Origin: Nitratireductor mangrovi
GTDB taxonomy: Bacteria; Pseudomonadota; Alphaproteobacteria; Rhizobiales; Rhizobiaceae
Direction of reading: 5' to 3'
Assembly: GCF_007922615.2 (NCBI RefSeq)
Contig: NZ_CP042301.2
Location: 2,604,001 to 2,668,000, forward strand
DNA length: 64,000 bases
Below are positions 15,517 through 59,586 of this stretch, one piece after another. Position 1 is the first letter of the stretch. Every line of letters starts with the position of its first letter. The notes under the pieces are model-generated. The model was not told where the DNA came from. It saw only the letters and a list, made by a program, of their open reading frames with translations, and ran no database searches. The position numbers and the translations under genes are program-made.

Positions 15517-15719
15517 GAGCGACAGGTTTAGAAAGCCTCCGGACACCCGGCGGGCGCCATTCGTTAAGGCACGCTAAACAGGCGTGGAAAACAAATGGTT
15601 AAGATTTTTAAGTTTTGGCGCCACACACACCCACGCAGGCGCAGGCAACTGCCGGCCAGAACACCACATTAATTTTTGTAGCCTAGGATCGCAGGAGGCA
15701 GGCTAGCAGAAAGCGGTGC
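15517..15719. promoter_or_regulatory. Divergent polysaccharide promoter region with TTAA motifs
   Basis: This is the 203-bp control region between the co-polymerase and flippase genes. It contains TTAA-N7-TAAAC at 15564-15579, one mismatch from the CtrA consensus TTAA-N7-TTAAC. An AT-rich block at about 15590-15615 has two more TTAA words five bases apart, and TTAAT occurs near 15670. The AT-rich block is unusual for this GC-rich window and is a likely place for regulator or nucleoid-protein binding. An AGGAGG lies about 25 nt before the flippase ATG, too far to be a normal ribosome site. Confidence 0.45.
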
Positions 15720-17030: not shown

Positions 17031-17069
17031 ACGGCATGCGCCGACCGCTTGGTCCTATGCCTTCCGGCC

Positions 17070-17993
17070 TCAGCCGGCGGCGTTGACCAGTGAACGGACG
17101 TGCTTCATGTCCGTGCCAATGAAAGACTGCATGCCGATTGCCACCTGGCCGGGCCCCATGCCGTCGACGAAAGCGCGGAAGGTGCCTTCATCGAGGCGAG
17201 GCCCGCGCCAGTAGACGCGGCACAGTTCCTCGTCGGAGAGAAAATGACCCCGGCCGCCCAGAACTTCGTCGGCGTAGCGGCCATAGATCATGCATTCGGA
17301 AAACTTCCGGTCGGCGCCGATCGCCTCGACCCAATGCGTGCCGCTGATCGCCTCGATCTGCTCGCACATGCCTAGCACGCTCTCGCGCCGCCAGGCGATG
17401 AAGGTGGCAATGTAGTCATGCGCGGAAACGCGCGGCTTGGTGATGCCGAGGACGCGGCCGGCATTGCGCGACCAGACCTTGTGATCGCCGTCGACCGCGC
17501 CTTCGAGCGCGCCGTCGCGGCGGAACAGCCGCACGTCGCCGCCGCGCCAGAAGGCGGCGCAGTCCAGGTCCTTCAAGACGACGACATCGGAATCGATATA
17601 GATCAGCGCATCCTCTTCGACATGCGCAGCCACCGCGATGCGGCGCAGTTGCTGGACATGCCAGCCGCGCAACGGCTTGGTGCGGGTCGACAGCCAGAAC
17701 TTCCTGCGGAACAGGCTCGTCGGGTCCGGGACCGGACGCAGCCAGCGTGGCAGCAGATCACGCTCACTGATGACCACGCGGTTGCGTGCCTCCAGGCTCT
17801 TGAACAGCGCCACGTCGGCATGGGCGACCAGGATATAATGCCGCGCATGGCCGGAGACATGGCGGTCGATCGTTTCGCAGAGCAGCCGGCAGCGCTCGAA
17901 ATCCGGCGCATAGCTTGCCGTGACGATGGCGCAACTGCCGGCAGCGCGGCGCGCGGCACCGCCGCGTCGTGTTTCGCGAACGGCCATGTTCAT
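17070..17993 (-). CDS. DUF6492-type GT-A-fold glycosyltransferase
   Basis: This 307-aa protein starts MNMAVRETRRG and has SCAIVTASYAPDFERCRLLC near the N-terminus. The metal/nucleotide-sugar motif YIDSDVVVLKDLD supplies a DxD. This arrangement is typical of DUF6492 proteins found in rhizobial surface-polysaccharide loci and implies a cytoplasmic sugar transferase; donor and acceptor are unknown. The start codon at 17993 lies in an ATGA overlap with the stop of the upstream GT26 gene, which settles the start against a longer frame reaching 18236. It is the last gene of a three-gene minus-strand operon. Confidence 0.8.
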   Translation of the reverse strand: MNMAVRETRRGGAARRAAGSCAIVTASYAPDFERCRLLCETIDRHVSGHARHYILVAHADVALFKSLEARNRVVISERDLLPRWLRPVPDPTSLFRRKFWLSTRTKPLRGWHVQQLRRIAVAAHVEEDALIYIDSDVVVLKDLDCAAFWRGGDVRLFRRDGALEGAVDGDHKVWSRNAGRVLGITKPRVSAHDYIATFIAWRRESVLGMCEQIEAISGTHWVEAIGADRKFSECMIYGRYADEVLGGRGHFLSDEELCRVYWRGPRLDEGTFRAFVDGMGPGQVAIGMQSFIGTDMKHVRSLVNAAG

Positions 17994-18790
17994 GAGCGCG
18001 GCACCGTCATCCGCAGCCGCTGGCGCAGAACCCTGAACAAGAACATAGGGTTGCCGACGATGTAGCGCCGCCACAGCCGCCCCGGCTCGAGTATCAGCCT
18101 GAAGAGCCACTCCAGGCGTAAGCGCCGGACCCAGCCCGGCGCGCGCGGGATAGCGCCGCTCAGGAAGTCGAGCAACGCGCCCACGGCAAATGCCATGGTG
18201 CAGTGCTCGCCGGTCAGCCGGCTGGCGATCCAGCATTCCTGCCGCGGAACACCCATCGCCACCAGAAGCACGTCCGGCCGTTCCCGCTTCAGCCTGGAAA
18301 GAATCTCTTCCTCCCGTGTCGGGTCGAAATAGCCGTCATGGATCAGCACGACGCGGTGCTGCGGCACGAGGCGCTGCAGGCGGTTGACTGCCTCCTCGGC
18401 GTTCTTGCGTGTCGCGCCGAGCAGGCCGACCGTCAGCGGTCCCTTCTGTGATTTCAGAAAGGCGGGCACGAAGTCGGTGCCGTTGAGGTTGGCCGGGAAC
18501 GGCGCCCCATAAAGGATACGCGACGCCAGATCGACGCCAATCCCATCGGAAAACACCAGGAAATCCTCGAGAATCCGCGAAAATTCGGGGGTTTTGCTGG
18601 CTATGTTGGCGATGTGTGCGTTGAGAAAGCCGACCTTCGTGAACTGCCTGTCGGCGACGCGCCGGCCGAGCAGCCGGATCGCCTGTTCCTGGTCGAGCGG
18701 TACCACATCGACACCGAGGATTCGGCGACCGGGCTCCTGAGCCCTGGCGCCAAGGGCGACTGCGGCGGTGGAGGATGGATGCACGTTCAT
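17990..18790 (-). CDS. WecB/TagA/CpsF family (GT26) glycosyltransferase
   Basis: This 266-aa protein shows the hallmark sequence of the family: ILGVDVVPLD, GFLNAHIANIASKTPEF, FSDGIGVDLASRILYG and VAMGVPRQECWIASR. The family includes N-acetylmannosamine or related transferases that act on undecaprenyl-linked acceptors at the cytoplasmic membrane. The C-terminus is rich in Arg and Leu, as expected for membrane association. It overlaps both neighbours by 4 nt (ATGA), so the three minus-strand transferases are translationally coupled. The sugar is not predictable from the sequence. Confidence 0.93.
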   Translation of the reverse strand: MNVHPSSTAAVALGARAQEPGRRILGVDVVPLDQEQAIRLLGRRVADRQFTKVGFLNAHIANIASKTPEFSRILEDFLVFSDGIGVDLASRILYGAPFPANLNGTDFVPAFLKSQKGPLTVGLLGATRKNAEEAVNRLQRLVPQHRVVLIHDGYFDPTREEEILSRLKRERPDVLLVAMGVPRQECWIASRLTGEHCTMAFAVGALLDFLSGAIPRAPGWVRRLRLEWLFRLILEPGRLWRRYIVGNPMFLFRVLRQRLRMTVPRS

Positions 18791-19962
18791 GCCGCCACCC
18801 CCCGAACGCTGGTGCCGCCAAGAACGGCGAGCCCTTTCGCGACAGCCGCGTCGAGATCCCGGCGCTGACGGGCGAAGAATTCGGCACCGTCGAGATCGCT
18901 ACGCAATTCGGCCGCAGCGCTTTCAAGTGCGGCGGCGAACGCCGCCGGGTCGTCGGCGACCGTGCAATTGGCGGGCAGATGGGAGATGCCGCGCAGCGAA
19001 CGGCTGGTCGCCACCGACGGCAGGCCGAGCTCGAAGGTCTCGATGGTCTTCAACTGCACCCCGGTCCCGGCCCGCGCCACCAACGGTATGACCGCAGCCT
19101 GACGGACGAAGGCGGTGGCGTCCGGCACGCGCCCGACCAGCTCGACATTGTCTGGCACCGGACCGAGCCCGGCAGGGATGTGGCCGGCGATCCTGATACG
19201 GAAATCCGGCCTCAACCGCGGCGCCACCTCGTGCAGGAACCACTCAAGCCCGATGCGGTTGGGCTGCCAGCTCCAAGTGCCGATCAGGCCGGCGTCGCAT
19301 TCGATGGCCCGGTTTGGTTCAAAGACTGGCGCAGACGGCCGCGTCACCAGCGGCAGCGATGCCGAGTATTCTCCGCGCACGCCGAGCGCGTCGCGATCCT
19401 CCTCGGCGAGCGTGAAAACGAACCGCGCGCGCCGGCAGAGCCTGCGCTCCATCGATTCGAGCAGCCTGGCCTCGCGGCGGAACAGCGTGCGCTGTATTGC
19501 GTCGGTCGCGGCGTCGGCATTTTCCTGCGCGGAGCGATGCTCGACATTGTGGGCCACGAAGATGGACGGTCGGTCGGCAAAAAGCGTTTCGTAAGCGCCA
19601 GCCAATTGCACGGCGTTCAGGACATAGGCGTCGAACGGGCCGATGCTTGCCAATGCTTCGCGAATGCGCGTTTCCGAAACGGCCCGCATCTTGGCCGAGG
19701 AGACGGTCAGGCCCGACATCAGCGCCCCAGCCAGCCATTTCGCCTTCTGCGCCGCCGACGCACCTTCCGTACGCACGTCGACGGAGCCCAGTGAAACGGT
19801 GTTTTGCGGGTCGCTGGGCGCCTTGCCCGGCCATGTATAGCCGAGCACCGTGACCCGCGCGCCGACCCGGCGCAGCGCATCAATGATCGCGGCGTTGGCT
19901 ATCTCGTACCCGGTCGCCGGCGCACCGTCGGGTACCAGGGATGTGACAAAGACCAGATGCAT
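18787..19962 (-). CDS. GT4-type glycosyltransferase
   Basis: This protein of about 391 aa has a GT-B fold. The N-terminal MHLVFVTSLVPDGAPATGYE begins the acceptor domain. The C-terminal GLIGTWSWQPNRIGLEWFL and GTGVQLKTIETFELGLPSVA are characteristic of GT4 retaining transferases, including the E-x7-E region. It probably adds a hexose to the lipid-linked repeat unit. A start at 19977 (MQVGD) is possible, but 19962 fits the family N-terminus better. It is the first gene of the minus-strand transferase operon, divergent from the GT2 gene across 147 nt. Confidence 0.9.
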   Translation of the reverse strand: MHLVFVTSLVPDGAPATGYEIANAAIIDALRRVGARVTVLGYTWPGKAPSDPQNTVSLGSVDVRTEGASAAQKAKWLAGALMSGLTVSSAKMRAVSETRIREALASIGPFDAYVLNAVQLAGAYETLFADRPSIFVAHNVEHRSAQENADAATDAIQRTLFRREARLLESMERRLCRRARFVFTLAEEDRDALGVRGEYSASLPLVTRPSAPVFEPNRAIECDAGLIGTWSWQPNRIGLEWFLHEVAPRLRPDFRIRIAGHIPAGLGPVPDNVELVGRVPDATAFVRQAAVIPLVARAGTGVQLKTIETFELGLPSVATSRSLRGISHLPANCTVADDPAAFAAALESAAAELRSDLDGAEFFARQRRDLDAAVAKGLAVLGGTSVRGVAA

Positions 19963-20079
19963 GTCGCCTACCTGCATTCTTACCTAGCAAGCTCCGATGA
20001 AGTCTTGCTTAAGCAGGCAAGGCATATGCCGGTTGCGGCCGGATGTGGCCCTCCCGGGGGCGTCGTTCTGACCGAGTGC

Positions 20080-20095
20080 TTAACCATACCTTAAC
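20080..20095 (+). promoter_or_regulatory. CtrA-type box upstream of the GT2 gene
   Basis: The sequence reads TTAA, seven bases (CCATACC), TTAAC. This is an exact match to the full CtrA consensus TTAA-N7-TTAAC known from Caulobacter and conserved in Rhizobiales. It ends 14 nt before the ATG at 20110, a position compatible with overlap of the core promoter of the GT2-polymerase pair. A palindrome TGCTTAAGCA lies at 20006-20015 in the same divergent region. Binding is inferred from sequence only. Confidence 0.5.
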
Positions 20096-20109
20096 GCGGA
20101 CAGCGCTTT

Positions 20110-21138
20110 ATGAACGAAACCGTCACCGCAGGTCGCCGAATGCAGCCGTCCATCAACGTCGAGAACGTGACGCTCGTGGCACGATCGCCGGGCCTTAGCG
20201 CCGATTCCATCGAGATTGCAGTCACCCTGCCGACCTTCAGGCGGCCCGAGCAGGTGCTCGAGACCATCCGCTCGGTCGCGGCACAGCGGACAAGGCGGCC
20301 ATTTGCCCTGATCGTGATGGAAAATGACGCAGAACGGCACGCCGGAGCCGATGCAGCCGCGCCGCTGTTCGAAAATGATACGGTGGCGGGACTCCTGATC
20401 ATCGCCGAGGAGCGCGGCAACTGCAGCGCCTACAATGCCGGCTGGTCGACCGCGCTCGATCAGTTCCCCAACCTGAAATATGTGCAGGTGATCGACGATG
20501 ACGAACTCGCCGAGCCGGACTGGCTCGAAACGATGGTTGCCACCGCCGAGCGGCTTTCCGCCGACATCGTCGGCGCGCCGCAGGTTCCGGTGTTTCCGAA
20601 CGCTTCCGACCAGCGCTGGGCCGATCATCCGGTCTTTGCCCCGCCCTATCGCACGACCGGACTGGTCGATGCGCTCTATTCGTCGGGTAATCTGCTGGTC
20701 TCGCGCCCGGTGCTCGACGCCATGGAACGGCCGTTCCTGGAGCCTGCCTTCAACTTCATGGGCGGCGGCGATTCCGATTTCCTGAGCCGCGCGGCGCGCA
20801 AGGGCTTCAAGCTCGGCTGGTGCGCCGAGGCACCGGTGCTGGAGACGATCCCCGCACGCCGGCTCGAAGGCGACTGGATCAGGGCCCGTTCATTGCGCAA
20901 CGGCGTGATCTCGACGCTGGTCGAAAAGCGCCGTCGGGCGGATGCGCCGCTGGGTGCGATGCGCGTCGCCGCCAAGAGCCTGGCACTGCTTGCCGCCGCA
21001 CCGCTGCGCGGCATGATACGCTTCATTCGCACCGGCTCCGCATCGGTCGGCATCTATCCGCTCTACGTGGCGCTTGGTCGTGTGATGGCGGAATTCGGCT
21101 ACGCCAATGAACAATACCGGCAGCCTGAAAAGAACTGA
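20110..21138 (+). CDS. Family 2 glycosyltransferase
   Basis: This 342-aa protein is an inverting GT-A enzyme. IEIAVTLPTFRRPEQVLETIRS begins the nucleotide-sugar fold. VQVIDDDELAEPDWLETMV carries the DxD metal site, and FMGGGDSDFLSRAARKGFKLGW is the acceptor-side motif with the likely catalytic Asp. It acts at the cytoplasmic face during polysaccharide repeat-unit assembly. The downstream polymerase gene starts inside its last 32 nt, so the two are co-transcribed. A CtrA-type box precedes it. The transferred sugar is not known. Confidence 0.92.
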   Translation: MNETVTAGRRMQPSINVENVTLVARSPGLSADSIEIAVTLPTFRRPEQVLETIRSVAAQRTRRPFALIVMENDAERHAGADAAAPLFENDTVAGLLIIAEERGNCSAYNAGWSTALDQFPNLKYVQVIDDDELAEPDWLETMVATAERLSADIVGAPQVPVFPNASDQRWADHPVFAPPYRTTGLVDALYSSGNLLVSRPVLDAMERPFLEPAFNFMGGGDSDFLSRAARKGFKLGWCAEAPVLETIPARRLEGDWIRARSLRNGVISTLVEKRRRADAPLGAMRVAAKSLALLAAAPLRGMIRFIRTGSASVGIYPLYVALGRVMAEFGYANEQYRQPEKN

Positions 21139-22432
21139 CGCCGCGCGGATGGGCGATGCGCTGGCGGGGCTCCTCGCCGGCCGCGGCCTGCCGACCGCCG
21201 TCGCGGCGGTGCTGCTCGCCATTCTGCTGATCTCTTTCAAGCCGTTCGTCGAACAGGGGCCGAGCGAGACCGGCGGCGACATCGTCAACCAGCTTGGTTT
21301 CGGTGGCCTGGGCGCGGTCTCGATCTTCTGCCTGTTCACACTCGTCGACCGAAGGCGCCTGGCTTGCCTGCTCAGCCCCTGGTGGCTGGTCCTGCTGGGT
21401 TTCTTCATGCTGTCGGTGCTCAACGCGACCGATCCTTCGTCAGCCTTCCGCACGGCCGTCTTCACGCTGATCGGCGTGCTGGCGGCGATCACCGTCGTGG
21501 TGCTGCCGCGCGACGCCGATGCCTTCTCGGCTGCGCTGGCCGCCGCAGGCTTTGCGCTGCTCGGCTTCTGCTACGTCGGCCTCGTGCTTTACCCCGATCT
21601 TGCCAAGCACACCGCCAACTCGCTCGAACCCGAGCACGCGGGGTTCTGGCGCGGCACCTTCTCGCACAAGAACATCGCCGGGCCGGTGATGGCCTGCATT
21701 TCGCTCGCCGGGCTGCACCTCTTGCGGCGCGGCTGGACGTGGACGGGGGGCAGTCTCTTCGTGCTGGCAATCTTCTTCATGTCCAACACCGGCTCGAAAA
21801 CCACCGTCGGCCTGGTGCCGCTTGCCGTCCTGCTGGTCATCGGCCCCAGCCTGTTCGGACTGCGCCGGCTGGTCCCCCTGGTCTTCCTTGGCGCGCTGGG
21901 GGCGGCGACCGTCGGCACGGTCGGCATCGTGCTGTCGGATACGCTGTGGGGCTATTCGCAGCAGATCGCGCCCGGCCTCACCTATACCGGGCGCACCGCG
22001 CTGTGGTCGTTCCTGATCGAGATGATCGGCAAGAAACCGTGGTTCGGCTACGGCTACGAAAGCTTCTGGGGCACACCCTTCATCTTCACAATCGACCAGC
22101 CCTTCGACCGCGCCTGGGACATTCGCGGCATCGTCCATGGCCATAATGGGTATCTCGATCTGGCCGTGCTGATGGGCCTGCCGGCCCTGGCCGCGGCCAT
22201 GATCGCCTTCATCCTGGTGCCGCTTCGCGACTTCCTTCGCGTACCGCACCGGCGCGAAAACGTGCTGGTGGCCGACCTGTTCATGAGCATCCTGTTGTTC
22301 ACGGCCCTCAACGCGCTTCTGGAAAGTTTCTTCTTCCGGCGCGTCGACCCGGTCTGGATCTTTTTCGTCATCGCGATTTTCGGGTTGCGTTTCGCAGCCC
22401 GCTTTCCGATCAGCACCCGGGCCTCGGACTAG
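21107..22432 (+). CDS. O-antigen ligase/polymerase family protein (Wzy/ExoQ-like)
   Basis: This 441-aa protein has about ten membrane segments and a large periplasmic loop in the second half. It carries the family signature GTFSHKNIAGPVMACISLAG and, after the loop, HGHNGYLDLAVLMGLPAL and FFFRRVDPVWIFFVIAIFGLRF. This matches ExoQ/Wzy-type polymerases and WaaL ligases. Because the same locus has a co-polymerase and a flippase, polymerase is the more likely role. The start at 21107 lies inside the GT2 gene (32-nt overlap), a common coupling arrangement. Confidence 0.87.
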   Translation: MNNTGSLKRTDAARMGDALAGLLAGRGLPTAVAAVLLAILLISFKPFVEQGPSETGGDIVNQLGFGGLGAVSIFCLFTLVDRRRLACLLSPWWLVLLGFFMLSVLNATDPSSAFRTAVFTLIGVLAAITVVVLPRDADAFSAALAAAGFALLGFCYVGLVLYPDLAKHTANSLEPEHAGFWRGTFSHKNIAGPVMACISLAGLHLLRRGWTWTGGSLFVLAIFFMSNTGSKTTVGLVPLAVLLVIGPSLFGLRRLVPLVFLGALGAATVGTVGIVLSDTLWGYSQQIAPGLTYTGRTALWSFLIEMIGKKPWFGYGYESFWGTPFIFTIDQPFDRAWDIRGIVHGHNGYLDLAVLMGLPALAAAMIAFILVPLRDFLRVPHRRENVLVADLFMSILLFTALNALLESFFFRRVDPVWIFFVIAIFGLRFAARFPISTRASD

Positions 22433-22506
22433 CCGGCCTCTCGTTTCGGCCCATTGCATCTTGCCGCCCACGCATGCAAACCGGTCCGGAACCGGAGGAT
22501 TTGACG

Positions 22507-23342: not shown

Positions 23343-24059
23343 TCAGTCCCCGACGATCCCGAAGACCCGGCGTGCGCCCGCGTCGCGGTAGAAGTCGACG
23401 CGTTCGCCGTCCCAGTGATAGTCGAGGTGCCGGCCCTGAACCGGGGCTTTCGCCAGATCGGGATGAAAAAGGCCGACGCATTCGCCCGACGGAAGGCGAA
23501 CGCTGGGATAGACCACGCCTTCAGAACCGGCCTGCCGCAACCGGCCGGCAAAGGCCTGGGCGGCACCATAGGCGTCGGGGTCAAGCAGGGGCGAACGGCC
23601 TTCGCTTCCCCGGATATCATGCAGGACCGCCTCGACGTCGAGCACGATCTCGCGGAACTGCGACGTCCATCCCGGCGGTTCCGCGGTGCGCGCCATGAAA
23701 CGGGCATGGTGATGGATGGTCTCGAACAGCGCCGTCTCGAAGCGGTCGCCGACGTAAAGAACACCGAAGGAACCGTCGCTGAACCGGCTTTTCCTGTCGG
23801 CGCTGACATGGGTGAACGGCGCCATCAGGTAGCTGGCGCCGGGACCGGAGACGCGCCGCGAGAGCGGCACCAGATCGAGGTTGCCGATGGAAGCCATCAA
23901 GCGCGGATTGGTCTTCTGCTCGGCCGCTATGATGAGCGACCAGTCAGCCGGATCGGCTATGTCCTCGAAAAGATCGATCGGCGGATGGATGCTGCGAATG
24001 ATCCTGATCGCGCCATTCCACCGGATTTGCGCGATCGGCACCTCGGCCGGGCCGGTCAC
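23343..24059 (-). CDS. RES-domain toxin of a RES/Xre toxin-antitoxin pair
   Basis: This 238-aa protein carries the RES domain. Family members are NAD+-degrading toxins related to ADP-ribosyltransferases. Visible features are an Arg-rich N-terminal region (IRWNGAIRIIRS), GVLYVGDRFETALFETIHHHARF with the conserved Glu, and a C-terminal GVVYPSVRLPSGECVGLF. The start is a GTG at 24059 inside a GTGA overlap with the antitoxin stop, the usual antitoxin-first order. It sits between proC and its antitoxin on the minus strand. Confidence 0.9.
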   Translation of the reverse strand: MTGPAEVPIAQIRWNGAIRIIRSIHPPIDLFEDIADPADWSLIIAAEQKTNPRLMASIGNLDLVPLSRRVSGPGASYLMAPFTHVSADRKSRFSDGSFGVLYVGDRFETALFETIHHHARFMARTAEPPGWTSQFREIVLDVEAVLHDIRGSEGRSPLLDPDAYGAAQAFAGRLRQAGSEGVVYPSVRLPSGECVGLFHPDLAKAPVQGRHLDYHWDGERVDFYRDAGARRVFGIVGD

Positions 24060-24469
24060 CAGCCGCCGCGCTCGGCGTCGAGATAGCGGCGCACACGCAT
24101 GAGATCGGTCAGTTCGCCGCCAAGCATGACCTCCAGCGCCGATTGCCCGCCAAAGGACTCGTTCGGCTTGCCGACCCAGGCATAACCACGCTGCGGCTCG
24201 CGGAAGATGATGCGCAGCGCCTTGTGGATGCCCATGAGATTGGAAAGCCGCGCCTTGCCGTCGCGTCCGATGCGGCCGATCGCGCCCGCCTTCCAGCGCG
24301 CGAAGGTGCGCGGCGGCAGGTCGAGCAGCACGGCCGCCTGATCGTCGGTCAGCCCCCACAGCCGGAACAGGTTGATCGCTGCGCGGAACATGGCCGCGGC
24401 TTCCTGGTCGGTGATCGCGGTTTCCGCAACGCCGGGCGGATCGGTTTCAATGGGCAGGATCAATGCCAT
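24056..24469 (-). CDS. Xre/MbcA/ParS-type (DUF2384) antitoxin
   Basis: This 137-aa protein has an N-terminal helical region with an Xre-like helix-turn-helix (RLWGLTDDQAAVLLDLPPRTFARWKAG). The C-terminal toxin-binding domain contains GKPNESFGGQSALEVMLGGELTDLMRVRRYL, the MbcA/ParS signature. It binds and neutralises the RES toxin and normally represses its own promoter. The ATG at 24469 lies inside a perfect palindrome and only five bases downstream of a -10-like TATTAT, so the mRNA could be leaderless. The stop overlaps the toxin GTG. Confidence 0.92.
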   Translation of the reverse strand: MALILPIETDPPGVAETAITDQEAAAMFRAAINLFRLWGLTDDQAAVLLDLPPRTFARWKAGAIGRIGRDGKARLSNLMGIHKALRIIFREPQRGYAWVGKPNESFGGQSALEVMLGGELTDLMRVRRYLDAERGGW

Positions 24470-50483: not shown

Positions 50484-52301
50484 TCAGGGCTGCCATCCGG
50501 AAAGCGGGCCACGCGGTTCCAGCCACGCCGCCGGCACTTCGACGGGCAGGTCCAGCAGCATCTGGGCGTAGGTTTTGGCCTGCGGATCGTAGCGTAGCGA
50601 TGCCGTTCCGCCGCCGCCAAGCACGTCTTCGAGCAGGAAATTGAGCGCGTTGAACCCCGGCAAGAGGTAGCGCCGGACCTCGCCCTCAAGGTAATGCGCG
50701 AAGAAACCGCCGACGCGTTCAGCCGTGACCTGTTCGCAAAGGTAGGGATAGAACTCGGACCGGCGGGCGATGATGCCGATATTGGCATGGTTGCCCTTGT
50801 CGCCGCTTCGCCCCCAGGCCAGGGCCCGCAACGGAACGGTCACGGTCCGGGCGCCCCGCAACGGCGCAGGCGGCGGCGCGTCGGGCGGCAAATCGTTCGA
50901 AGCTCCCCCATCCGCGATCGTCGCCCGGCGCGCTTCCCCATCGACTTCAATCTCGACCGGCACTCGCGCCTTCGGCCACAGAAAGGAATGCACGCGCAGC
51001 ACCGGCGTCGGTTTGGGCCGGCCATGCAGGACGCCGGTGAGGCCTTGAGCCATCGCGACGCCCGGATGGGCAAACTCGCGGGCAAAGATTTCGAGCGCCT
51101 TGGGATCATCGTGCCTCAGTCCGATCTTGACGATGACCTCGCGCGCCTCGAAATCCCTGCGTGCCGCGCCATAGGTATCTTCGGCGCCGATGCATTCGAC
51201 CGAGACCTCGCGATAGGGGCTAAAGCCGCGTGCGGCCATGATCGCCCCGGTGCGCCTGATCAGCGCGTCGGCCGTTCGGCGGCCCTTGTCGGCAGCCCGC
51301 CAGCCCGCGATCATGTAGGTGGTCATCAACCGGAAGCCGTCGAGGTAGGTGCCGCAGACCTTGTAGTCCGACCCTGGCGCTCTGCCCTTCGCATTCCTGA
51401 CCAGCACGCGGTCGACATCGAGCTGTTCGAGCCGCACCTCGGAAAAGTCGCAGGTGACATCCGGCAGCCGATAGGCGCGCGGGTCGCCGATCTCATAGAC
51501 GATCTGCTCGGCGACGGTCCCGACCGAAACCAGACCGCCCGTCTCGGCCGGCTTGGTGACGACGAAGCTGCCGTCCGCCGCACATTCGACGATCGGGAAG
51601 CCCATATCGTGCCAGCCGCCGGCAACCTCTTCCCAGTCGGTGAAAAGCCCACCCGTCGCCTGGGCTCCGCATTCGATGACGTGGCCGGCAAGGCTGCCCG
51701 CGGCGAGGCGGTCGTAATCCTCGACCTGCCAGCCGAACTCGTGGATCAGCGGTCCGAGCACCATCGCCGAATCGACCACGCGGCCGGTGATCACCACGTC
51801 GGCGCCGTCGGAAAGCGCTTGCGCGATTGGGGTGGCGCCGAGATAGGCGTTGACCGACGCGAAGCGTTCGGGCAGCGGTGCACCGGAAAACATCTCCGCG
51901 GGCGCCGCGCACGCGATCTCCGCAGCCTGCCCGGACAGGTCGTCGCCCGTCACGACGGCGACCTTGAAATCGAGCCCGGCCTCGGCGGCCGCGACCAGAA
52001 AGGCGTCCCGGCAAGCGCCGGGGTTCATGCCGCCGCTGTTGGTGACCAGCCTGATACCCTGCCGCTTGATATCCGTCAGAACCGGCTTCACCGAGGCGAG
52101 CCAGTCCGGCACGAAGCCGCCTTCAGGTGCCTTAACCCGCGCCCGGGCGAGCAGGGCCATGGTCACCTCGGCGAGATAATCGCCAACCAGATAGTCGAGC
52201 TTGCCCTTTTCGACGAGTTGCCGAGCGGCGAGCGTGGTGTCGCCCCAGGCGGCAGACGAACTGCCGATACGAACGATTTTTCCGTTCAAGACCCGCCCCA
52301 T
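50484..52301 (-). CDS. AtuA-family (acyclic terpene utilisation, DUF1446) protein
   Basis: The protein is about 605 aa. It opens GKIVRIGSSSAAWGDTTLAARQL and contains GIRLVTNSGGMNPGACRDAF, ADVVITGRVVDSAMVLGPLIHEF, AGHVIECGAQATGGLFTDW and LAWGRSGDKGNHANIGIIARR, which mark the AtuA family. AtuA is required for citronellol/geraniol catabolism in Pseudomonas, but its chemistry is unknown. Here the carboxylase genes atuC/atuF are missing; only an enoyl-CoA hydratase is beside it (4-nt gap). It is the last gene of the seven-gene minus-strand operon. The ATG at 52301 is preferred to longer frames. Confidence 0.9.
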   Translation of the reverse strand: MGRVLNGKIVRIGSSSAAWGDTTLAARQLVEKGKLDYLVGDYLAEVTMALLARARVKAPEGGFVPDWLASVKPVLTDIKRQGIRLVTNSGGMNPGACRDAFLVAAAEAGLDFKVAVVTGDDLSGQAAEIACAAPAEMFSGAPLPERFASVNAYLGATPIAQALSDGADVVITGRVVDSAMVLGPLIHEFGWQVEDYDRLAAGSLAGHVIECGAQATGGLFTDWEEVAGGWHDMGFPIVECAADGSFVVTKPAETGGLVSVGTVAEQIVYEIGDPRAYRLPDVTCDFSEVRLEQLDVDRVLVRNAKGRAPGSDYKVCGTYLDGFRLMTTYMIAGWRAADKGRRTADALIRRTGAIMAARGFSPYREVSVECIGAEDTYGAARRDFEAREVIVKIGLRHDDPKALEIFAREFAHPGVAMAQGLTGVLHGRPKPTPVLRVHSFLWPKARVPVEIEVDGEARRATIADGGASNDLPPDAPPPAPLRGARTVTVPLRALAWGRSGDKGNHANIGIIARRSEFYPYLCEQVTAERVGGFFAHYLEGEVRRYLLPGFNALNFLLEDVLGGGGTASLRYDPQAKTYAQMLLDLPVEVPAAWLEPRGPLSGWQP

Positions 52302-52305
52302 ATCG

Positions 52306-53106
52306 TCACGTCCAGCGCGGTTTTCGCTTTTCAAGAAACGCGGCCACGCCTTCCCGCCCCTCCTCACCGAGCAGGCACTCGGCGAAGCCGTCGGCGGCAA
52401 GGTCGAGCATGGCTTCGGGACCCATGCGACCAGCGGCATGCACGATGTTCTTGGTGATGGCGTTGGCGCCGGGCGCACACCGGCGAACACTGTCCCTGAT
52501 TTTCGCCTCGACTGCGGCGAAGGCCGCAACATCGGGAACGGTCTTGTCCACGATCCCGAGCCTTGCAGCCTCCCGACCGTCAAACCGCGCCGCTGTCAAC
52601 ATGATGCGCCGGGCCGCGGCTATTCCGGTGCGCTGGACGACAAACGGCGCGATCTGCGCCGGCGGAATGCCGAGCATGGTCTCGGTCAGCGCAAATTTCG
52701 CATCCTCGGTCGCCACGATCATGTCGCCGGCGCAGGCAAGCCCCAGCCCGCCGGCCATGGCCGCGCCATGGACCAGCATGACCGTGACCTGAGGCAAGGT
52801 GTTGACGGCGTGGAAGAGCTCGCCGGCGCTACGGCTGAAGGCGACCACCTCGGCCTTGGAGACGTCCTCGCGCATCAGTGCCCGGAAGGCCTTGAGATCG
52901 CCGCCGGCGCAAAAAACCTCGCCCTTGCCGCGAAAGGTGATCCCCCGGATGCTGCGATCGCCGGAGAGCGCCGCTACTACCGCCGCGAGTTCGCTGGACA
53001 TCTCCGCCGAGAGTGCGTTGCGGGCGTCCGGTCGATTGAGCCAGATCGTGAGCCAGCCGTCGTCCCGCTCCAGCACCAGCGTCTCGGTCGACGGCAGATC
53101 GGACAT
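52306..53106 (-). CDS. Enoyl-CoA hydratase/isomerase family protein
   Basis: This 266-aa crotonase-fold protein has GKGEVFCAGGDLKAFRAL, the first oxyanion-hole segment, near residue 60. VHGAAMAGGLGLACAGDMIVAT, the second oxyanion-hole segment, follows, then FALTETMLGIPPAQIAPFVVQR. The second region ends in the canonical position for a catalytic Glu (TETMLGI). The end fits the family (LEKRKPRWT). It resembles AtuE/LiuC-like hydratases, consistent with the neighbouring AtuA gene, but the substrate is unknown. It lies between the NadE-like gene (41 nt) and AtuA (4 nt). Confidence 0.93.
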   Translation of the reverse strand: MSDLPSTETLVLERDDGWLTIWLNRPDARNALSAEMSSELAAVVAALSGDRSIRGITFRGKGEVFCAGGDLKAFRALMREDVSKAEVVAFSRSAGELFHAVNTLPQVTVMLVHGAAMAGGLGLACAGDMIVATEDAKFALTETMLGIPPAQIAPFVVQRTGIAAARRIMLTAARFDGREAARLGIVDKTVPDVAAFAAVEAKIRDSVRRCAPGANAITKNIVHAAGRMGPEAMLDLAADGFAECLLGEEGREGVAAFLEKRKPRWT

Positions 53107-53147
53107 GCGACTTCCCCTTCAGATGGCGCGCCGCGCGCAGTCTGAAG

Positions 53148-54131
53148 CTATGCGAGCGGCGCCGCAAGCTGTGGCGGAAGATGCAGGTAGTGCGCCACTT
53201 TGCGCTTCGCCGCGATATCCTTCCAGACCATATCGACCTGATCAGCACTGAGCGCGGCCGCACCGGCGACGGCCGTTGCCGGCAATCCGTGATCAAGCCC
53301 GTAGAGGCAGAGGTCCATCTTGTCGTAGGGCAGCGCGAAGTAGAATTCTTCCTGCGTCTGCGGCAGCGAATAGGTGTCGGTGGTCGGCGGTCGGGTGCGC
53401 ACCTCCTCCGGCACGCCAAGATATTCGGCGAGCTGATAGACCTGCGACTTGTAGAGATGGGCAATCGGCTTCACATCCGCCGCCCCGTCGCCGTTCTTGA
53501 CGAAAAAGCCCTGATCGTACTCGAGCCGGTTGGGCGTGCCGATCACGGCGTAGTTGAGCCGGTCGGCATGATAATATTCGAGCTGCTTGCGCGTGCGCTG
53601 CTTCATGTTGGTCGCGGCCACGATGCCGAGATAGGCCGCGGCCGACAGGCGGTGCCTGGCGACTTCGCCATCCGGGCTGCGCACTACCAGCGAGGAAATA
53701 TTGTAGCCCGAAGTGGTCATGGCGTTGGCAAAGACGATCTTCGACGTCCAGCCAGGCCCGTATTCGGGAACGATCTCGCGGATGAACCGGTCGCGGCGGC
53801 GATAGCAGCCCATTGCCTCCAATGCCGGCCCGATATCTTCCACCTCGGCCGTTAGCCCGAAGGTGTCGGCGACCAGTTGGCCAAGCCGTTGGCTTTCGGG
53901 ATCGGAATCGTTCTCCGGCATCAGCAGGCAGTGAACGTTTTTCGCGCCGACGGCACGCGCGGCAAGGCCCGCGCAGACACTGGAATCGATGCCGCCGGAG
54001 AGACCGAGCACGAGCCCGCGCTTGCGCAGCGGGCCGCGAAGTTGCTCGCGCATGGCCGCGGCGATGCGATTGGTTTCGGCGGCCGCATCGATCGAAAGCG
54101 CGGCAGGGGAGAAGGTCGGACGATGGTTCAT
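53148..54131 (-). CDS. Divergent stand-alone NAD+ synthase-like (NadE) amidotransferase
   Basis: This 327-aa protein has the ATP-pyrophosphatase P-loop LVLGLSGGIDSSVCAGLAARA (SGGIDSS near residues 44-50) and the NadE-like NGDGAADVKPIAHLYKSQVYQLAEYLGVP. The canonical regions for deamido-NAD differ: GTPNRLEYDQGFF takes the place of the usual GTGNKSE, and the C-terminus reads TTDTYSLPQTQEEFYFALPYDKMD. There is no glutaminase domain. It overlaps the acyl ligase gene by 4 nt and sits downstream of an ACP and AsnB gene, so amidation of a carrier-linked or adenylated acid is as plausible as NAD synthesis. Family: certain. Substrate: open. Confidence 0.85.
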   Translation of the reverse strand: MNHRPTFSPAALSIDAAAETNRIAAAMREQLRGPLRKRGLVLGLSGGIDSSVCAGLAARAVGAKNVHCLLMPENDSDPESQRLGQLVADTFGLTAEVEDIGPALEAMGCYRRRDRFIREIVPEYGPGWTSKIVFANAMTTSGYNISSLVVRSPDGEVARHRLSAAAYLGIVAATNMKQRTRKQLEYYHADRLNYAVIGTPNRLEYDQGFFVKNGDGAADVKPIAHLYKSQVYQLAEYLGVPEEVRTRPPTTDTYSLPQTQEEFYFALPYDKMDLCLYGLDHGLPATAVAGAAALSADQVDMVWKDIAAKRKVAHYLHLPPQLAAPLA

Positions 54132-55666
54132 TCGACTGTTCCTGTTGCTTGCACGAGGCGGCGCACGACCTTGCCGCTCGCAGTCTTTGGCAAGGCGTCT
54201 CGGAAGGCGACCGCCTTGGGCACCATGAAGTCAGGCAGATGCTGCGCGCAGTGGCGCATGACGGCGCGCGCGCTGAGGTCGGGGTCCGAGGCGACGACCG
54301 TCGCGTGCAGCACGTTGCCGAGGAGCGCATCCGGCACGCCGGTGACGGCGGCTTCGCGTACACCCGAGCAACCGTGAAGCACGGCTTCGACCCGGCACGG
54401 GGCTACCTTTTCACCCCGGATCTTGATGATGTCGTCCTTGCGCCCGACGAAATGCAAAAAACCCTCCGTGTCGGCGCGGAAGAGATCGCCCGTGTGCAGT
54501 TGCGTCTCGCCGGTCGCCGGGTCGGGCCGGAGCGCCTCGCGCGTGGCCGCCTCGTTCTCCCAGTAGCCGAGCATCAGATGCGGTCCGCGCACCACAAGTT
54601 CCCCTGTGTCGCCGCGCGCGACCGGTAGGCCCTCGCCGTCGACGATGGTGACTTCGGTACCCGGGATCGCCTTGCCGACCGATTCAGGCTTGCGGTCGAT
54701 CTCCTCCGGCGGCAGGCTGGTCGCCCGTGCGCATTCGCTGAGCCCGTACATCGAATGCAGGTGCGCGCCCGGGAACAGACGCCGCAGCCCGGCAATGTGG
54801 GCCGCCGGCAAGGGGGCGGCGGCGTTGGTTATGTAGCGCAGTGCCGGCAGGCTCGTTGCGGAAAGATCGTTCATCGACAAAAGCATCGCGGCCATGGTCG
54901 GCACCAGCGGCAACCCGGTGACACCCTCCTTGCGTGCTTCCTCCATCACCGCATGCGGGAAAGCGAAACCCTTGGCCAGCAACAGCGTGGCGCCGGTGCG
55001 GACTGAAACGATCAGTTGGTAGAGCCCGTAGGTGAAGGAGAGCGGCAGCGCACCAAGCACAACGTCATCGGCACTGTTGCCGAGATAGGAGGCGATCGAG
55101 GCCGACACGGCGAGCATCGCCGAGTGTTGCATCATCACGCCCTTGGCCTGCCCGGTCGAGCCCGATGTGTAGATGATCATCGCCAGATCGGCTTCGGCGC
55201 CGATGTGCGTTGGACGGGGCGCGGCGGACCCCACGAGCGTCTCGAACGGTAAAAGCCCGGCTACGAGCGGCCCCTGCGCCCGCGCCACCACGATCCGCGG
55301 CGGCTCCGCCAATCCTTCCGCCGCGGCCGCGCACCCGGAGGCGTATTTCGCCTGGGTCAACGCCGCCCGCGGTCGGCAGTCGGCGAGCAACTGGCCGAGC
55401 CCGTTGCCCTTAAGTGATGGATTGACGGGGCAGAACACGGCGCCGGCCTTCAGCACCGCGAAGATCGACAGCGCCGCTTCGGCGATGTTGTCCATGAGGA
55501 TGACGACGCGGTCGCCCCGCTCGACACCCAACGCCACCAGCCCTGCAGCTAGCCGGTCAGAATCTGCATCAAGGTCGCCGTAGCTCATGCGCGCCGGGCC
55601 GTCGACGAGCGCGACCTTCTCGGGACGCTCCGCCGCGCTTTCGCGCAGAAGGTCTTCGACGCGCAC
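54128..55666 (-). CDS. Class I adenylate-forming acyl-CoA/acyl-ACP ligase
   Basis: This 512-aa AMP-forming enzyme has the full core: IIYTSGSTGQAKGVMMQH (P-loop, about residue 165), SMYGLSECARATSLP, LHTGDLFRADTEGF, GRKDDIIKIRGEKVAP and the C-terminal catalytic Lys in LPKTASGKVVRR. It activates a carboxylic acid as an acyl-AMP and loads a thiol. Because a stand-alone acyl carrier protein gene lies 9 nt upstream, loading of that ACP is likely. The start appears to be a GTG at 55666. The stop overlaps the NadE-like ATG (ATGA). Confidence 0.93.
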   Translation of the reverse strand: MRVEDLLRESAAERPEKVALVDGPARMSYGDLDADSDRLAAGLVALGVERGDRVVILMDNIAEAALSIFAVLKAGAVFCPVNPSLKGNGLGQLLADCRPRAALTQAKYASGCAAAAEGLAEPPRIVVARAQGPLVAGLLPFETLVGSAAPRPTHIGAEADLAMIIYTSGSTGQAKGVMMQHSAMLAVSASIASYLGNSADDVVLGALPLSFTYGLYQLIVSVRTGATLLLAKGFAFPHAVMEEARKEGVTGLPLVPTMAAMLLSMNDLSATSLPALRYITNAAAPLPAAHIAGLRRLFPGAHLHSMYGLSECARATSLPPEEIDRKPESVGKAIPGTEVTIVDGEGLPVARGDTGELVVRGPHLMLGYWENEAATREALRPDPATGETQLHTGDLFRADTEGFLHFVGRKDDIIKIRGEKVAPCRVEAVLHGCSGVREAAVTGVPDALLGNVLHATVVASDPDLSARAVMRHCAQHLPDFMVPKAVAFRDALPKTASGKVVRRLVQATGTVE

Positions 55667-55675
55667 CGCCGCGCC

Positions 55676-55948
55676 CTAGCCGGCGAGCCTTCGGCCCTCG
55701 CCGCGCTTGCGCGCGATGAAGGCGGCGATGTTGTCGATCGAATCGAGGTTGGCCGGTACGATGTCGGCGTCGGCGATCGTCAGCCCGAAATGCTCCTCGA
55801 GATAGGAGACCAACTCAAGGATGCCGGTGGAATCGACGAGGTCACTCTCGATCAGCGAAACGCTGTGCTCGAGCGGGTATTTGTCGTCACCGAAGAGAAA
55901 GTTCTCGACGATGAAGTCGCGCACCTGCTGGTGGACGGTATCGGACAT
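55676..55948 (-). CDS. Stand-alone acyl carrier protein
   Basis: This 90-aa protein is acidic and helical. It begins MSDTVHQQVRDFIVENFLFG and continues LIESDLVDSTGILELVSYLEE, placing the phosphopantetheine Ser at residue 40 within DST. Housekeeping AcpP has DSL, so this is a specialised carrier. EEHFGLTIADADIVPANLDSIDNIAAFI is the usual helix III/IV region. It lies 27 nt after the AsnB gene and 9 nt before the acyl ligase. Confidence 0.93.
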   Translation of the reverse strand: MSDTVHQQVRDFIVENFLFGDDKYPLEHSVSLIESDLVDSTGILELVSYLEEHFGLTIADADIVPANLDSIDNIAAFIARKRGEGRRLAG

Positions 55949-55975
55949 GGCGATGGCCTTTCTCGGTTCGAATTC

Positions 55976-57928
55976 TCAGCCGGCAAGCGCCGTTGGCGCG
56001 GCCCGGGACGGTGTGGCGAATTCCCTCGCCCAAAGTTGCGTTGACAGGATGCCGACGAAGGCGGCGTTGTCGCGAAAGCCGGCGATGAGACCACGCCGGC
56101 TTTTTTCGTAAAGCTTTGCCGCCGCACGCGGGTTGAACAGACCGGTCTCGGCGAGCGCGTCGGCCGAGAACAGCTGTTCAGCGCAGGCGCCTTCGGCACC
56201 GCCGAAGGAAGCGCTGTCGGGCGCACGGTATGGCTGCTTGGGACGTTCGGCTATCTTGGCAGGCACCAGGCCCTCCGCCGCGGCGCGCAGTATATGCTTC
56301 TCGCGCAGGCCTTTGAGCTTCATGCCGGGCGGGATGCGGGCTGCGAACTCGACCAGCCTGTGGTCGAGGAACGGAAATCGCGATTCCACGCCGTGCGCCA
56401 TCACCATTCGGTCGCCCTGGCTCGACAGGATGTAGCCGGGCAGAAGGAAGCGCGTTTCGAGATATTGCGCCTGATGCAGGACATGCCAGCGCCCGAACTC
56501 TGCTGGCAGCATGCCTGCCAGCTCGTCGGCCGCGTCGTAGCCGGCAAGCGTCGACCGCAACTCCTGCGAGAAGAAATTCTTCGCACCCGCCGTCGCGCGG
56601 AAGCGCGGCCGGTGCGAATAGAGCGGATCGTCCGCCGCATCAGCGCCGATCCCGAAAAAGGCCGCGAGAAACTCCGGGGACTGCTGCTGCAACGAACTCA
56701 AATAGGGATAGATCCTGCGGAACAGATTTGGCCTCAAACCCGAGGCCGGCTGTCGGGCACAGAAGCGGCGAATGCGGGCTTCCTTGAAAAGATCGTACCC
56801 GGCGAAGACCTCGTCGGCCCCTTCCCCCGACAGCACCACCTTCAGGTTCTGCGACCGCAACTCCTGCGCGAGCAGGTAGAGCGGCACCGGTGCCGTGCGC
56901 AGCACGGGACGTTCCATCTGGCGGACCACTTGCGGGAACGCCGCCGCAATGTCCTCGCCGCGGCATGCCACCCCATGGTGCCGCGTTCCGAGGGCGGCCG
57001 CCATCGTTTCCTGGAACCCGCTTTCGTCGAAATCCGGGTCGTCGAAGGTGACCGCGAAGGTGCGGAGGCCACCCGGCGCTTCACGCGCCGCCAGCGCGGA
57101 AACGAGCGACGAATCGAGCCCGCCGGAAAGGAACGAGCCGACCTCGACATCGGCGCGCAGGCGGATGCGGGTAGCGTCCTCGAGCAAGGCCCGCAATTCC
57201 TCGGCAATCGCGCTCTCGGGTCGATCTGCCGCCTGCTCCCCGCGGTCCGGAAATGTCAGCGACCAGTAGGCGTACGACCGGGCGCGGCCGTCATCGACGA
57301 TCATCACCTGCGCCGGCGGGAGTTCAAATACGTCCTTGAAGATGGTGCGCGGTGCGATCGGAGACCACAGAGTGAAGATCTGGTCGAGCGCCAGCGGGTC
57401 GACTTCGGCCGTGACCGCCGGCACCTCGAGAAGTGCCTTCGCCTCCGAGGCGAAATAGAACGTTCCGTCCCGCCACGCGTAAAGCAAGGGGCGCACGCCC
57501 ATGCGGTCGCGCGCCAGCATCAGCCGCCGGCAACGCCCGTCCCAGATTGCGAAGGCGAAATCGCCATTGAGCATGGTGACGAAATCGGGACCGAACTCCT
57601 CGTAGAGCTGCAGCACGACCTCGGTATCGCTCGCGGTGCGGAACCGGCACCCGCGTGCGCGCAGGGTTTCGCGCAACTCGACGAAATTGAACACCTCACC
57701 ATTGTAGGTGATGAAGACTTCGCCGCTGTGGCTCGCCATCGGCTGCGACGCCTGTTGGCCGGGGTCGATGACGGCGAGGCGGCGATGGCCGAGGCCGATG
57801 TCACGGCCGATATGAGCACCCTGCCCGTCCGGGCCGCGATGCGCCAGCGCCTGGCACATGCGCCACAAGAGCGCCGCGCCGTCACCGGGCGCGACGGCAT
57901 CACCGAAATAGCCCGCTATGCCGCACAT
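55976..57928 (-). CDS. Asparagine-synthase-type glutamine amidotransferase (AsnB-like)
   Basis: The protein is 650 aa. The N-terminal Ntn glutaminase starts MCGIAGYFGDAVAPGDG, with the nucleophilic Cys2 and downstream LAHRGPDGQGAHIGRDIGLGHRRLAVID. The C-terminal synthetase domain has a P-loop at FLSGGLDSSLVSALA (about residues 265-271). It also has VLSGEGADEVFAGYDLFKEARIR and the family C-terminus ESRFPFLDHRLVEFAARIPPG. Enzymes of this architecture make asparagine or amidate other carboxylates in polysaccharide, exosortase or antibiotic pathways. Being inside an ACP/ligase operon argues for the second. Confidence 0.94.
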   Translation of the reverse strand: MCGIAGYFGDAVAPGDGAALLWRMCQALAHRGPDGQGAHIGRDIGLGHRRLAVIDPGQQASQPMASHSGEVFITYNGEVFNFVELRETLRARGCRFRTASDTEVVLQLYEEFGPDFVTMLNGDFAFAIWDGRCRRLMLARDRMGVRPLLYAWRDGTFYFASEAKALLEVPAVTAEVDPLALDQIFTLWSPIAPRTIFKDVFELPPAQVMIVDDGRARSYAYWSLTFPDRGEQAADRPESAIAEELRALLEDATRIRLRADVEVGSFLSGGLDSSLVSALAAREAPGGLRTFAVTFDDPDFDESGFQETMAAALGTRHHGVACRGEDIAAAFPQVVRQMERPVLRTAPVPLYLLAQELRSQNLKVVLSGEGADEVFAGYDLFKEARIRRFCARQPASGLRPNLFRRIYPYLSSLQQQSPEFLAAFFGIGADAADDPLYSHRPRFRATAGAKNFFSQELRSTLAGYDAADELAGMLPAEFGRWHVLHQAQYLETRFLLPGYILSSQGDRMVMAHGVESRFPFLDHRLVEFAARIPPGMKLKGLREKHILRAAAEGLVPAKIAERPKQPYRAPDSASFGGAEGACAEQLFSADALAETGLFNPRAAAKLYEKSRRGLIAGFRDNAAFVGILSTQLWAREFATPSRAAPTALAG

Positions 57929-57955
57929 GGGCTGCCCGGTCTCCTCGCTGCGCGT

Positions 57956-59068
57956 TCAGTCAAAGCGATCTCCGATGAGACGCGACCAGGATTCTCCCGC
58001 AAAGCCGTTGAAGAAGGCTTTCCCGGCAAGGAAAGGTTCGAGCAATTGCCTGTCGCGTGCATGCACGATGCTTGACGACGCATGGACGAAGGCGAAGCGG
58101 CGCCCGAGCATCGCTTCCAGCAGCGCCGGCATGGTGCGGCCGCGCAAGGCCACCAGGCCGCGGCCGGCGGCGTCCGCCAGCATGGAATCGATGACGGCGC
58201 CAGCCTGGCCGGGCGCAAACAGAATCTGCACGACACGGCCAATGCGGCCAGCGTCACCGTAGTAGAGAAACAGGCCGACCGGCCGGCCACCGCGGGCAAC
58301 CACCTTGCGCCGCACCATCGTGCCCCAGGCGGCCTTGCGCCGCGACTCCCTTATCATTCGCGACAGGCTGTCGGGTCGCCACGATGGCCGCGCCGCGTAG
58401 CCCACCGTGAAGGTCGTGAAGAGATCAGCCGTCTCGTCGTCGTCAACTTCGGAACTTTCGAGCGTTCCTTCCGGGGCCTCGACGGGCAGATGCGACCACT
58501 GCGGCCCTCCCCCCCGGCGGCGCATGACGGCATCGAGCGGCCGCGCCAAGGGGCGCAAGAGACGCAGCGGCGCAAAGGCGGTGCCCACCATCTCGGCCGC
58601 GAACCCGGCCGGGCGGATGATGCGAAGCCATTCCAGGCTGTGGTCGGGCAGCACGGTGGCGCGCAGCTTGCGCCACATCGTGGTGGAGATGTCGTTCGCC
58701 GTCTCGGTCAGCGAGATATCCTGCGGTCCGCCGAGAAAGGCGCGCATCAGCCGGGCACCGGCGAAGGGGTTGCCGGCATGGTTGTCGACCATCAGGGTGC
58801 CGCACAGGGCGCCGCGCACATGGCGGTTGTCGACAAGCATCGGCAGCGGCAACACCCCGACGAAGCCGTCGGGTTTTCCGTCGTGACGCAGGTGAACGAA
58901 CGAATTGATTTCCGGATCGCGGTCGGGACTGTCGAGAAATATCCGGCCCAGATAGGCTTCGAGATCGGACGTGACCGGGGCGCGGGTCTTGCGCAGGATC
59001 GACTGGAACAGCCGCGCCACCTCGGGCACGTCGTCCTCGCACAAGGCCCTGACCTCCTGTTGCTCCAT
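57956..59068 (-). CDS. GNAT-superfamily acyltransferase-like protein
   Basis: The protein is about 370 aa, with a start at the ATG 59068 (MEQQEVRALCEDDVPEVARLFQ). FVHLRHDGKPDGFVGVLPLPML and GTLMVDNHAGNPFAGARLMRAFL resemble the GNAT core and acetyl-CoA pocket. A second lobe of similar size follows (LVALRGRTMPALLEAM). Two-lobed GNATs like this occur next to AsnB, acyl ligases and ACPs in exosortase-A-type and polysaccharide clusters. It is the first gene of the operon, 27 nt before the AsnB gene. An N-terminal extension to 59272 is unlikely. Function unknown. Confidence 0.78.
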   Translation of the reverse strand: MEQQEVRALCEDDVPEVARLFQSILRKTRAPVTSDLEAYLGRIFLDSPDRDPEINSFVHLRHDGKPDGFVGVLPLPMLVDNRHVRGALCGTLMVDNHAGNPFAGARLMRAFLGGPQDISLTETANDISTTMWRKLRATVLPDHSLEWLRIIRPAGFAAEMVGTAFAPLRLLRPLARPLDAVMRRRGGGPQWSHLPVEAPEGTLESSEVDDDETADLFTTFTVGYAARPSWRPDSLSRMIRESRRKAAWGTMVRRKVVARGGRPVGLFLYYGDAGRIGRVVQILFAPGQAGAVIDSMLADAAGRGLVALRGRTMPALLEAMLGRRFAFVHASSSIVHARDRQLLEPFLAGKAFFNGFAGESWSRLIGDRFD

Positions 59069-59510: not shown

Positions 59511-59586
59511 GCCCAGGTAGCTCAGTTGGTAGAGCAGCGGATTGAAAATCCGCGTGTCGGTGGTTCGATTCCGCCCCTGGGCACCA
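59511..59586 (+). tRNA. tRNA-Phe (anticodon GAA)
   Basis: The 76-nt cloverleaf is complete. The acceptor stem is GCCCAGG paired with CCTGGGC, and the D-arm contains AGCTCAGTTGGTAGAGC. The anticodon stem-loop is GCGGA-TTGAAAA-TCCGC with GAA at 59544-59546, and the T-arm contains GGTTCGATTCC. CCA is encoded (59584-59586). In Mesorhizobium loti R7A the tRNA-Phe 3' end is the attachment site of the symbiosis island. No integrase gene is in the window. Confidence 0.99.

Follow-up and report, generated by a model that had tools for sequence, protein, structure and literature searches.

A conserved gene cassette around a NadE-like protein in Nitratireductor mangrovi, and its possible role in surface-sugar acylation

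Introduction

An operon that brings two different amide-forming enzymes together with a stand-alone acyl carrier protein (ACP) raises the question of what it makes, and to what the product is attached. Such an operon, of seven minus-strand genes, is found at positions 50484-59068 of the 64,000-nucleotide stretch of Nitratireductor mangrovi DNA analysed here (GCF_007922615.2, contig NZ_CP042301.2, positions 2,604,001 to 2,668,000; hereafter the window). From the first gene to the last, it encodes a GNAT-like protein, an AsnB-type amidotransferase, the ACP, an adenylate-forming ligase, a NadE-like protein, a crotonase and an AtuA protein (Table 1). The coordinates were taken from the list of open reading frames (ORFs), with the starts of the GNAT-like and AtuA genes set inside longer ORFs following the first-pass annotation. 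Recalculation returned the same strand and the same intergenic gaps as that annotation (27, 27, 9, -4, 41 and 4 nt), and from this spacing a single transcript of the seven genes is likely.

The operon consists of two units, namely a five-gene cassette (GNAT-like, AsnB, ACP, ligase and NadE-like) and a crotonase-AtuA pair. The cassette is real and widely conserved, and it is probably misnamed. We lean, with only slightly better than even confidence, towards regarding the five genes at 53148-59068 as a surface-sugar acylation cassette from which crotonase and AtuA are separate.

Conservation and distribution of the cassette

One hundred homologous stretches were compared, many of them close kin (L080 and L095 are on the same contig of 185,237 bases). 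Ninety-four were chosen through the NadE-like protein (model NF002048), being 14 from a phylum sample plus the best 80 of at least 566 encoded relatives; the other six were kept from 18 loci fetched through the GNAT-like protein. AsnB, ACP, ligase and NadE genes were found together on a single strand, inside a span of 9 kb, in 95 of the 100, in the order AsnB-ACP-ligase-NadE in 89, NadE-AsnB-ligase-ACP in five and AsnB-ligase-ACP-NadE in one. The exceptions were L082 and L163 (no AsnB match), L150 (no ligase match), L156 (neither) and L152, which is at a contig end and had no AsnB or ACP match. The ligase gene directly precedes the NadE gene in all of eight further same-family loci, and the catalytic residues of AsnB, ligase, ACP and NadE are conserved among the relatives from the 100 stretches. 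One record, L149, is titled Bacillus subtilis SK6B4 and clusters with Brucellaceae rows in the trees; it is probably a mislabelled or contaminated assembly.

The first-pass annotation had read all seven genes as one operon with a joint function. Five of the genes do recur together, but crotonase and AtuA accompany the cassette in only one of the 100 other stretches, that of Nitratireductor alexandrii (L092), where the same seven genes occur in the same order. Twelve other AtuA loci showed crotonase directly upstream in seven and no cassette gene within about 1.5 kb on each side; likewise, no crotonase was found within about 1.5 kb after NadE in the eight further same-family loci. In five larger AtuA stretches inspected by eye, the neighbours resembled genes for acyl-CoA dehydrogenase, SDR and TetR, in some stretches also biotin carboxylase, a neighbourhood that looks like a degradation module. 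The AtuA protein itself scored 460 bits with PF07287 (cut-off 22.8) and 101 bits with AtuA_ferredoxin. On these counts, the functional membership of crotonase and AtuA that had been assumed for the operon was abandoned.

The cassette is an accessory gene set. Scores above the NF002048 cut-off were obtained in 15 of the 398 genomes sampled from the phylum, at 465-518 bits against 93 for the next best match, and in 11 of the 61 genomes from the same family. The GNAT-like protein had matches in 16 of 199 genomes of the order and 5 of 289 of the class, the own genome being included in all these counts. Among 72,556 plasmid records, 116 matched at E 1e-60 or better, of which 76 were from Sinorhizobium, including pSymB of S. 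meliloti 1021. Many soil and root-nodule bacteria have this gene set, frequently next to surface-sugar genes. The control genome of the archaeon Methanosarcina acetivorans, far from the alphaproteobacteria, also contained an NF002048 match above cut-off.

On a Nitratireductor rhodophyticola plasmid (L220:304-3679), the cassette is located just downstream of TniB/TniQ/Mu-type transposase genes, and judging from this neighbourhood it may be mobile. A tRNA-linked insertion hotspot was considered and rejected: a tRNA-Phe gene, the sole tRNA found in the window, is located upstream of the operon (59511-59586, plus strand), but only 6 of the 54 stretches scanned out of the 100 contained a tRNA, and one of these six calls falls inside the ligase gene of L145 and is probably false.

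The NadE-like protein

The protein belongs to the NF002048/PRK00876 family, named "NAD(+) synthase", with a score above the cut-off of 313. Among the plasmid matches listed, the annotated gene under the match is nadE, NAD(+) synthase, except in CP073680.1, where only the overlapping ligase is shown. Compared with the ordinary NadE proteins examined, the subfamily has about 45-55 extra residues between two conserved blocks, and the ATP-loop residues are kept in all of 100 relatives.

The window's genome contains another NadE in a 561-aa frame, and another NadE is present in all of 20 cassette genomes searched, which argues against a need for the NadE-like protein as NAD synthase. The second PF02540 place scored at least 226 bits in 18 of the 20; in the other two, G615 and G722, it was weaker (83 and 82 bits), and the frames that contain it, of 695 and 826 aa, have a size that presumably fits another, glutamine-dependent type of NadE. 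The NadE-like enzyme therefore probably has another job than making NAD.

The ligase pocket and a neighbouring methyltransferase

The closest solved relatives of the ligase are LgrA and 3wvn, and its pocket residues are TYYTINMRAK. In the HMMER alignment, residue 212, a Thr, falls on the Asp of the FD motif in LgrA, a position that we take, from the motif, to be that of GrsA Asp235. This Asp holds the amino group of amino-acid substrates, with exceptions (available parts of PMC11253843). Among 98 ligase matches, the position is occupied by Asp in 72, Gly in 11, Thr in seven, Asn in three, Ser in two and Ala in two, and was unread in one. With the window counted, there are eight Thr rows, which make up a single clade (support 100) in the ligase tree, while they need two changes in the NadE tree. 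Because Thr replaces the amino-binding Asp in the window's clade, an acid without that amino group is predicted there, and one with an amino group for the Asp-type ligases. The position aligned with GrsA 330 is Arg in all 98 ligases, an indication that the substrates may all share an anionic group. The structure 3wvn is listed as VinN, a ligase of beta-amino-acid type, in the available parts of PMC11253843; it resembles the window's ligase in the bulky residue at position 236 and in a basic residue of that loop, and differs in having the amino-binding Asp where the window's ligase has Thr.

A gene for a PrmC-like methyltransferase was found beside the cassette in 37 of the 72 Asp-type stretches, as opposed to none of the 25 other typed stretches and none of the three untyped ones (one unread, two without ligase), a contrast to which shared ancestry contributes. 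All 37 proteins contain the NPPY motif. This motif marks amide or amine N-methylation.

AsnB, ACP and GNAT-like protein

The domain names of the first-pass annotation hold in Pfam and NCBIfam, weakly so for the ACP, whose Pfam score is just below the cut-off of 20.8, and for the GNAT-like protein. Cys2 of AsnB is kept in every one of the 91 relatives for which the alignment covers it, and the Ser40 of the ACP in 99 of 99. Membership in three families was rejected because the curated cut-offs were missed: the exosortase-A set (AsnB 436.5 bits with the XrtA amidotransferase model TIGR03108, cut-off 816.9; ligase 429.1 bits with TIGR03098, cut-off 592.35), the N-acetylglutaminylglutamine amidotransferase TIGR03104 (AsnB 388.3 bits, cut-off 570.1) and the ornithine lipid ACP NF052616 (59.7 bits, cut-off 130).

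The GNAT-like protein of the window matched no Pfam or NCBIfam model. Nine of 28 members of its family match Acetyltransf_9 (PF13527), weakly (best E 7.9e-5), and a weak profile match to N-myristoyltransferase was also obtained (E 0.24). Its gene is on the strand of NadE in 29 of the cassette stretches that have a relative. A second, distant GNAT-like protein (L102:14486-15559 and relatives), 26-30% identical to that of the window, was found beside the closer one in 17 of the 100 cassette stretches.

Association with polysaccharide genes

When cassette neighbours were clustered and representatives named by Pfam, genes for Wzx, Wzz, Wzy, glycosyltransferases and export were found, and a polysaccharide deacetylase was present in 17 of 101 cassette neighbourhoods. 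At least two polysaccharide genes occurred in 35 of the 100 cassette stretches, whereas none of the 20 control stretches, taken from arbitrary places in 15 genomes, had as many. As the probes were mostly drawn from cassette loci, this comparison is somewhat tilted towards the cassette, and the relatives are non-independent. Two or more were also found in 3 of the 12 stretches that contain the GNAT-like protein but no core genes. The ligases of the 35 polysaccharide-linked stretches were of Asp type in 33 and of Ala type in one, the remaining stretch being L150.

The clearest single case is that of Azospirillum thermophilum, from another order, in which an O-antigen ligase, three glycosyltransferases, a polysaccharide deacetylase, ACP, ligase, AsnB, NadE and a GNAT protein, weakly similar to that of the window (E 0.002), are encoded on one strand. 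Its ligase is of Gly type, which breaks the strict rule, considered and discarded, that only Asp-type ligases occur in polysaccharide loci. In S. meliloti RCAM1750, the cassette lies near minCDE, and in both RCAM1750 and 1021 a GNAT-like gene, the methyltransferase gene and Wzx are about 10 kb from it. The first-pass annotation had noted that sets of AsnB, ligase, ACP and GNAT occur in exosortase-A and polysaccharide loci, and other genomes now show the linkage to polysaccharide loci for precisely the set studied here. A 737-aa protein with marginal glycoside-hydrolase matches (L117:17311-19524, F14 family) was also noted in seven polysaccharide-linked cassette loci.

The same annotation had stated that no exosortase is present, and PF09721 indeed had no match in the window's genome. 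The operon itself contains no polysaccharide genes, but Wzz, glycosyltransferase and Wzy-type genes are present in the window (Table 1). The Wzy-type gene is the single match of its Wzy type in the genome; its similarity to relatives (21107-22495, plus strand) continues about 60 bases beyond a TAG stop at 22432. No deacetylase of the type seen in cassette relatives was found in the window.

Elsewhere in the window, a YcaO-domain gene (7261-8274, minus strand) adjoins a gene for a TPR-repeat protein (8658-10397, plus strand), and a RES-domain gene is found at 23343-24359 (minus strand). RES domains are familiar from toxin-antitoxin pairs.

Table 1. Genes of the operon and of the polysaccharide set in the window
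Feature	Position	Strand	Evidence
GNAT-like N-acyltransferase, first gene, 370 aa, proposed transferase	57956-59068	-	relative in 76/100 cassette stretches
AsnB-type glutamine-dependent amidotransferase	55976-57928	-	TIGR01536 515.6 bits; Asn_synthase 330 bits; GATase_7
Stand-alone acyl or aminoacyl carrier protein (ACP)	55676-55948	-	PF00550 19.8 bits; Ser40
Adenylate-forming ligase resembling NRPS adenylation domains	54128-55666	-	PF00501 (AMP-binding) 307 bits; AMP-binding_C
NadE-like ATP pyrophosphatase, NF002048/PRK00876	53148-54131	-	NF002048 518.3 bits
Crotonase, appended, judged outside the cassette	52306-53106	-	ECH_1 160 bits
AtuA with ferredoxin-like domain, appended, judged outside the cassette	50484-52301	-	PF07287, PF23544
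Wzz/GNVR chain-length protein of polysaccharide gene set	12712-15546	-	PF02706, PF13807
DUF6492, WecG/TagA and group-1 glycosyltransferase genes	17070-19977	-	domain matches
GT2 glycosyltransferase and Wzy/O-antigen-ligase-type gene	20110-22432	+	PF00535, PF04932

Discussion

The cassette probably makes a group that bears an amide and attaches it. The ligase would adenylate a small acid and load it on the ACP; AsnB, with ammonia from glutamine, and the NadE-like protein would each amidate a carboxylate, be it that of the acyl group, that of a uronic-acid sugar or both; and the GNAT-like protein would transfer the completed group from the ACP onto the amine of a sugar. In some relatives, this amine could be exposed by the neighbouring polysaccharide deacetylase. 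In the Asp-type relatives, N-methylation of the product by the PrmC-like methyltransferase may follow. Crotonase and AtuA would be a separate acyl-CoA degradation pair sitting downstream. The substrates, the step order, the product and the polysaccharide as target of the window's cassette are all inferred, as is the functional tie between the operon and the polysaccharide set at 12712-22432. The earlier proposal that an acid is adenylated, carried on the ACP, amidated and transferred stands, at the same level of inference, because the five genes recur and catalytic residues are kept in AsnB, ligase, ACP and NadE.

The closest parallel, by function only, is the Wbp/Vim sugar pathway of Porphyromonas and Tannerella, in which an AsnB-type amidotransferase, WbpS, is needed for the uronamide, and a CE4 deacetylase and the GNAT-like VimA offer a further likeness; VimE and VimA presumably replace an acetyl on the amine of a sugar by Ser or Gly (available parts of PMC7468200). 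Unlike the cassette, it is described in those parts with no NadE-like enzyme, ligase or ACP, and the words "acyl carrier" appear nowhere in the main text. By analogy, the scheme would be Wbp/Vim-like but with an ACP donor, and the statement of the first-pass annotation that the product matches no known class was too strong.

Other systems share parts of the cassette. The exosortase-A (PEP-CTERM) set, TIGR03098 plus TIGR03108, has a related ligase and amidotransferase, but both cassette proteins fall below the curated cut-offs and the NadE-like protein is an addition. TIGR03098 is tied to polysaccharide loci. So is TIGR03108, according to the available parts of PMC7468200. The synthesis of N-acetylglutaminylglutamine amide also employs an AsnB-type amidotransferase, that of the family whose cut-off the window's AsnB misses.

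Carrier-bound amino acids are placed on cell-surface polymers by the Dlt and AlmEFG systems. To our knowledge, these contain no amide-forming enzymes, and their transferases differ from that of the cassette; nor do we know of an ACP route in N-acetylglutaminylglutamine amide synthesis. What Dlt and AlmEFG have in common with the cassette is a stand-alone adenylating enzyme and a carrier protein that serve a surface transferase (for AlmE, available parts of PMC11253843). A literature search returned no paper on this gene set; most subscription papers were outside its reach, so that a description may have been published elsewhere.

Several observations weigh against a role in surface-sugar acylation, in addition to the origin of the polysaccharide probes. 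The GNAT-like gene is missing from 24 of the 100 stretches, including three of the seven Thr-type ones, and is on the opposite strand in 47, while 12 of the 18 loci found through the GNAT-like protein lack the core genes. Fewer than two polysaccharide genes were found in 65 of the 100 stretches, and none in 55; the seven other Thr-type stretches had none, although L091 (15 kb) and L093 (3.7 kb) among them are short, and in the window the polysaccharide set is about 30 kb from the operon. Finally, the NadE-like protein keeps residues that bind ATP and the dinucleotide in ordinary NadE, so that it could still make NAD.

Some of these points would be accommodated if the product of the cassette were a free small compound or an amide of osmolyte type, as in N-acetylglutaminylglutamine amide synthesis, and polysaccharide genes were merely frequent neighbours. 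The many stretches poor in such genes, the five Thr-type stretches whose flanks, inspected by eye, have no neighbour in common, and the AsnB score of 388 bits on TIGR03104 are all in its favour; however, that score misses the cut-off of 570, an ACP and a GNAT-like transferase suit attachment better, and the Azospirillum operon includes polysaccharide genes. We consider this unlikely, if the least unlikely of the alternatives. It is improbable that the NadE-like protein is a true ammonia-dependent NAD synthase through which the cassette includes an NAD supply: the P-loop and the later NadE blocks are kept, and both the model and the annotated plasmid records say NAD(+) synthase, but the second NadE genes, the extra residues and the sharp separation of the subfamily (at least 465 bits in the phylum sample, followed by 93), which keeps company with ligase and ACP, speak against it.

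Slightly less probable again is one seven-gene pathway, with crotonase and AtuA either preparing the acid that the ligase loads or removing it. The tight spacing of 41 and 4 nt and the identical operon of N. alexandrii are what one would expect from it, but the arrangement is absent from the other 99 cassette stretches (some of which end soon after NadE), and crotonase-AtuA pairs exist without the cassette.

Returning to surface-sugar acylation, the novel part of this carrier-based decoration would be the NadE-like enzyme. We suggest tentatively, and with somewhat less than even confidence, that NF002048 is a new amide (or peptide) ligase acting on an ACP- or sugar-bound carboxylate, and that with AsnB, a single-substrate ligase and the GNAT-like protein it produces an undescribed amidated, in some lineages N-methylated, surface-polysaccharide decoration. 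If this is true, a widespread subfamily now called "NAD synthase" would have its name corrected, the NadE fold would acquire a new job, and the surface polysaccharides of symbiotic and soil bacteria would bear an unknown chemical group. The presence of the cassette on pSymB of S. meliloti 1021, a strain that is tractable in the laboratory, makes the question directly testable.

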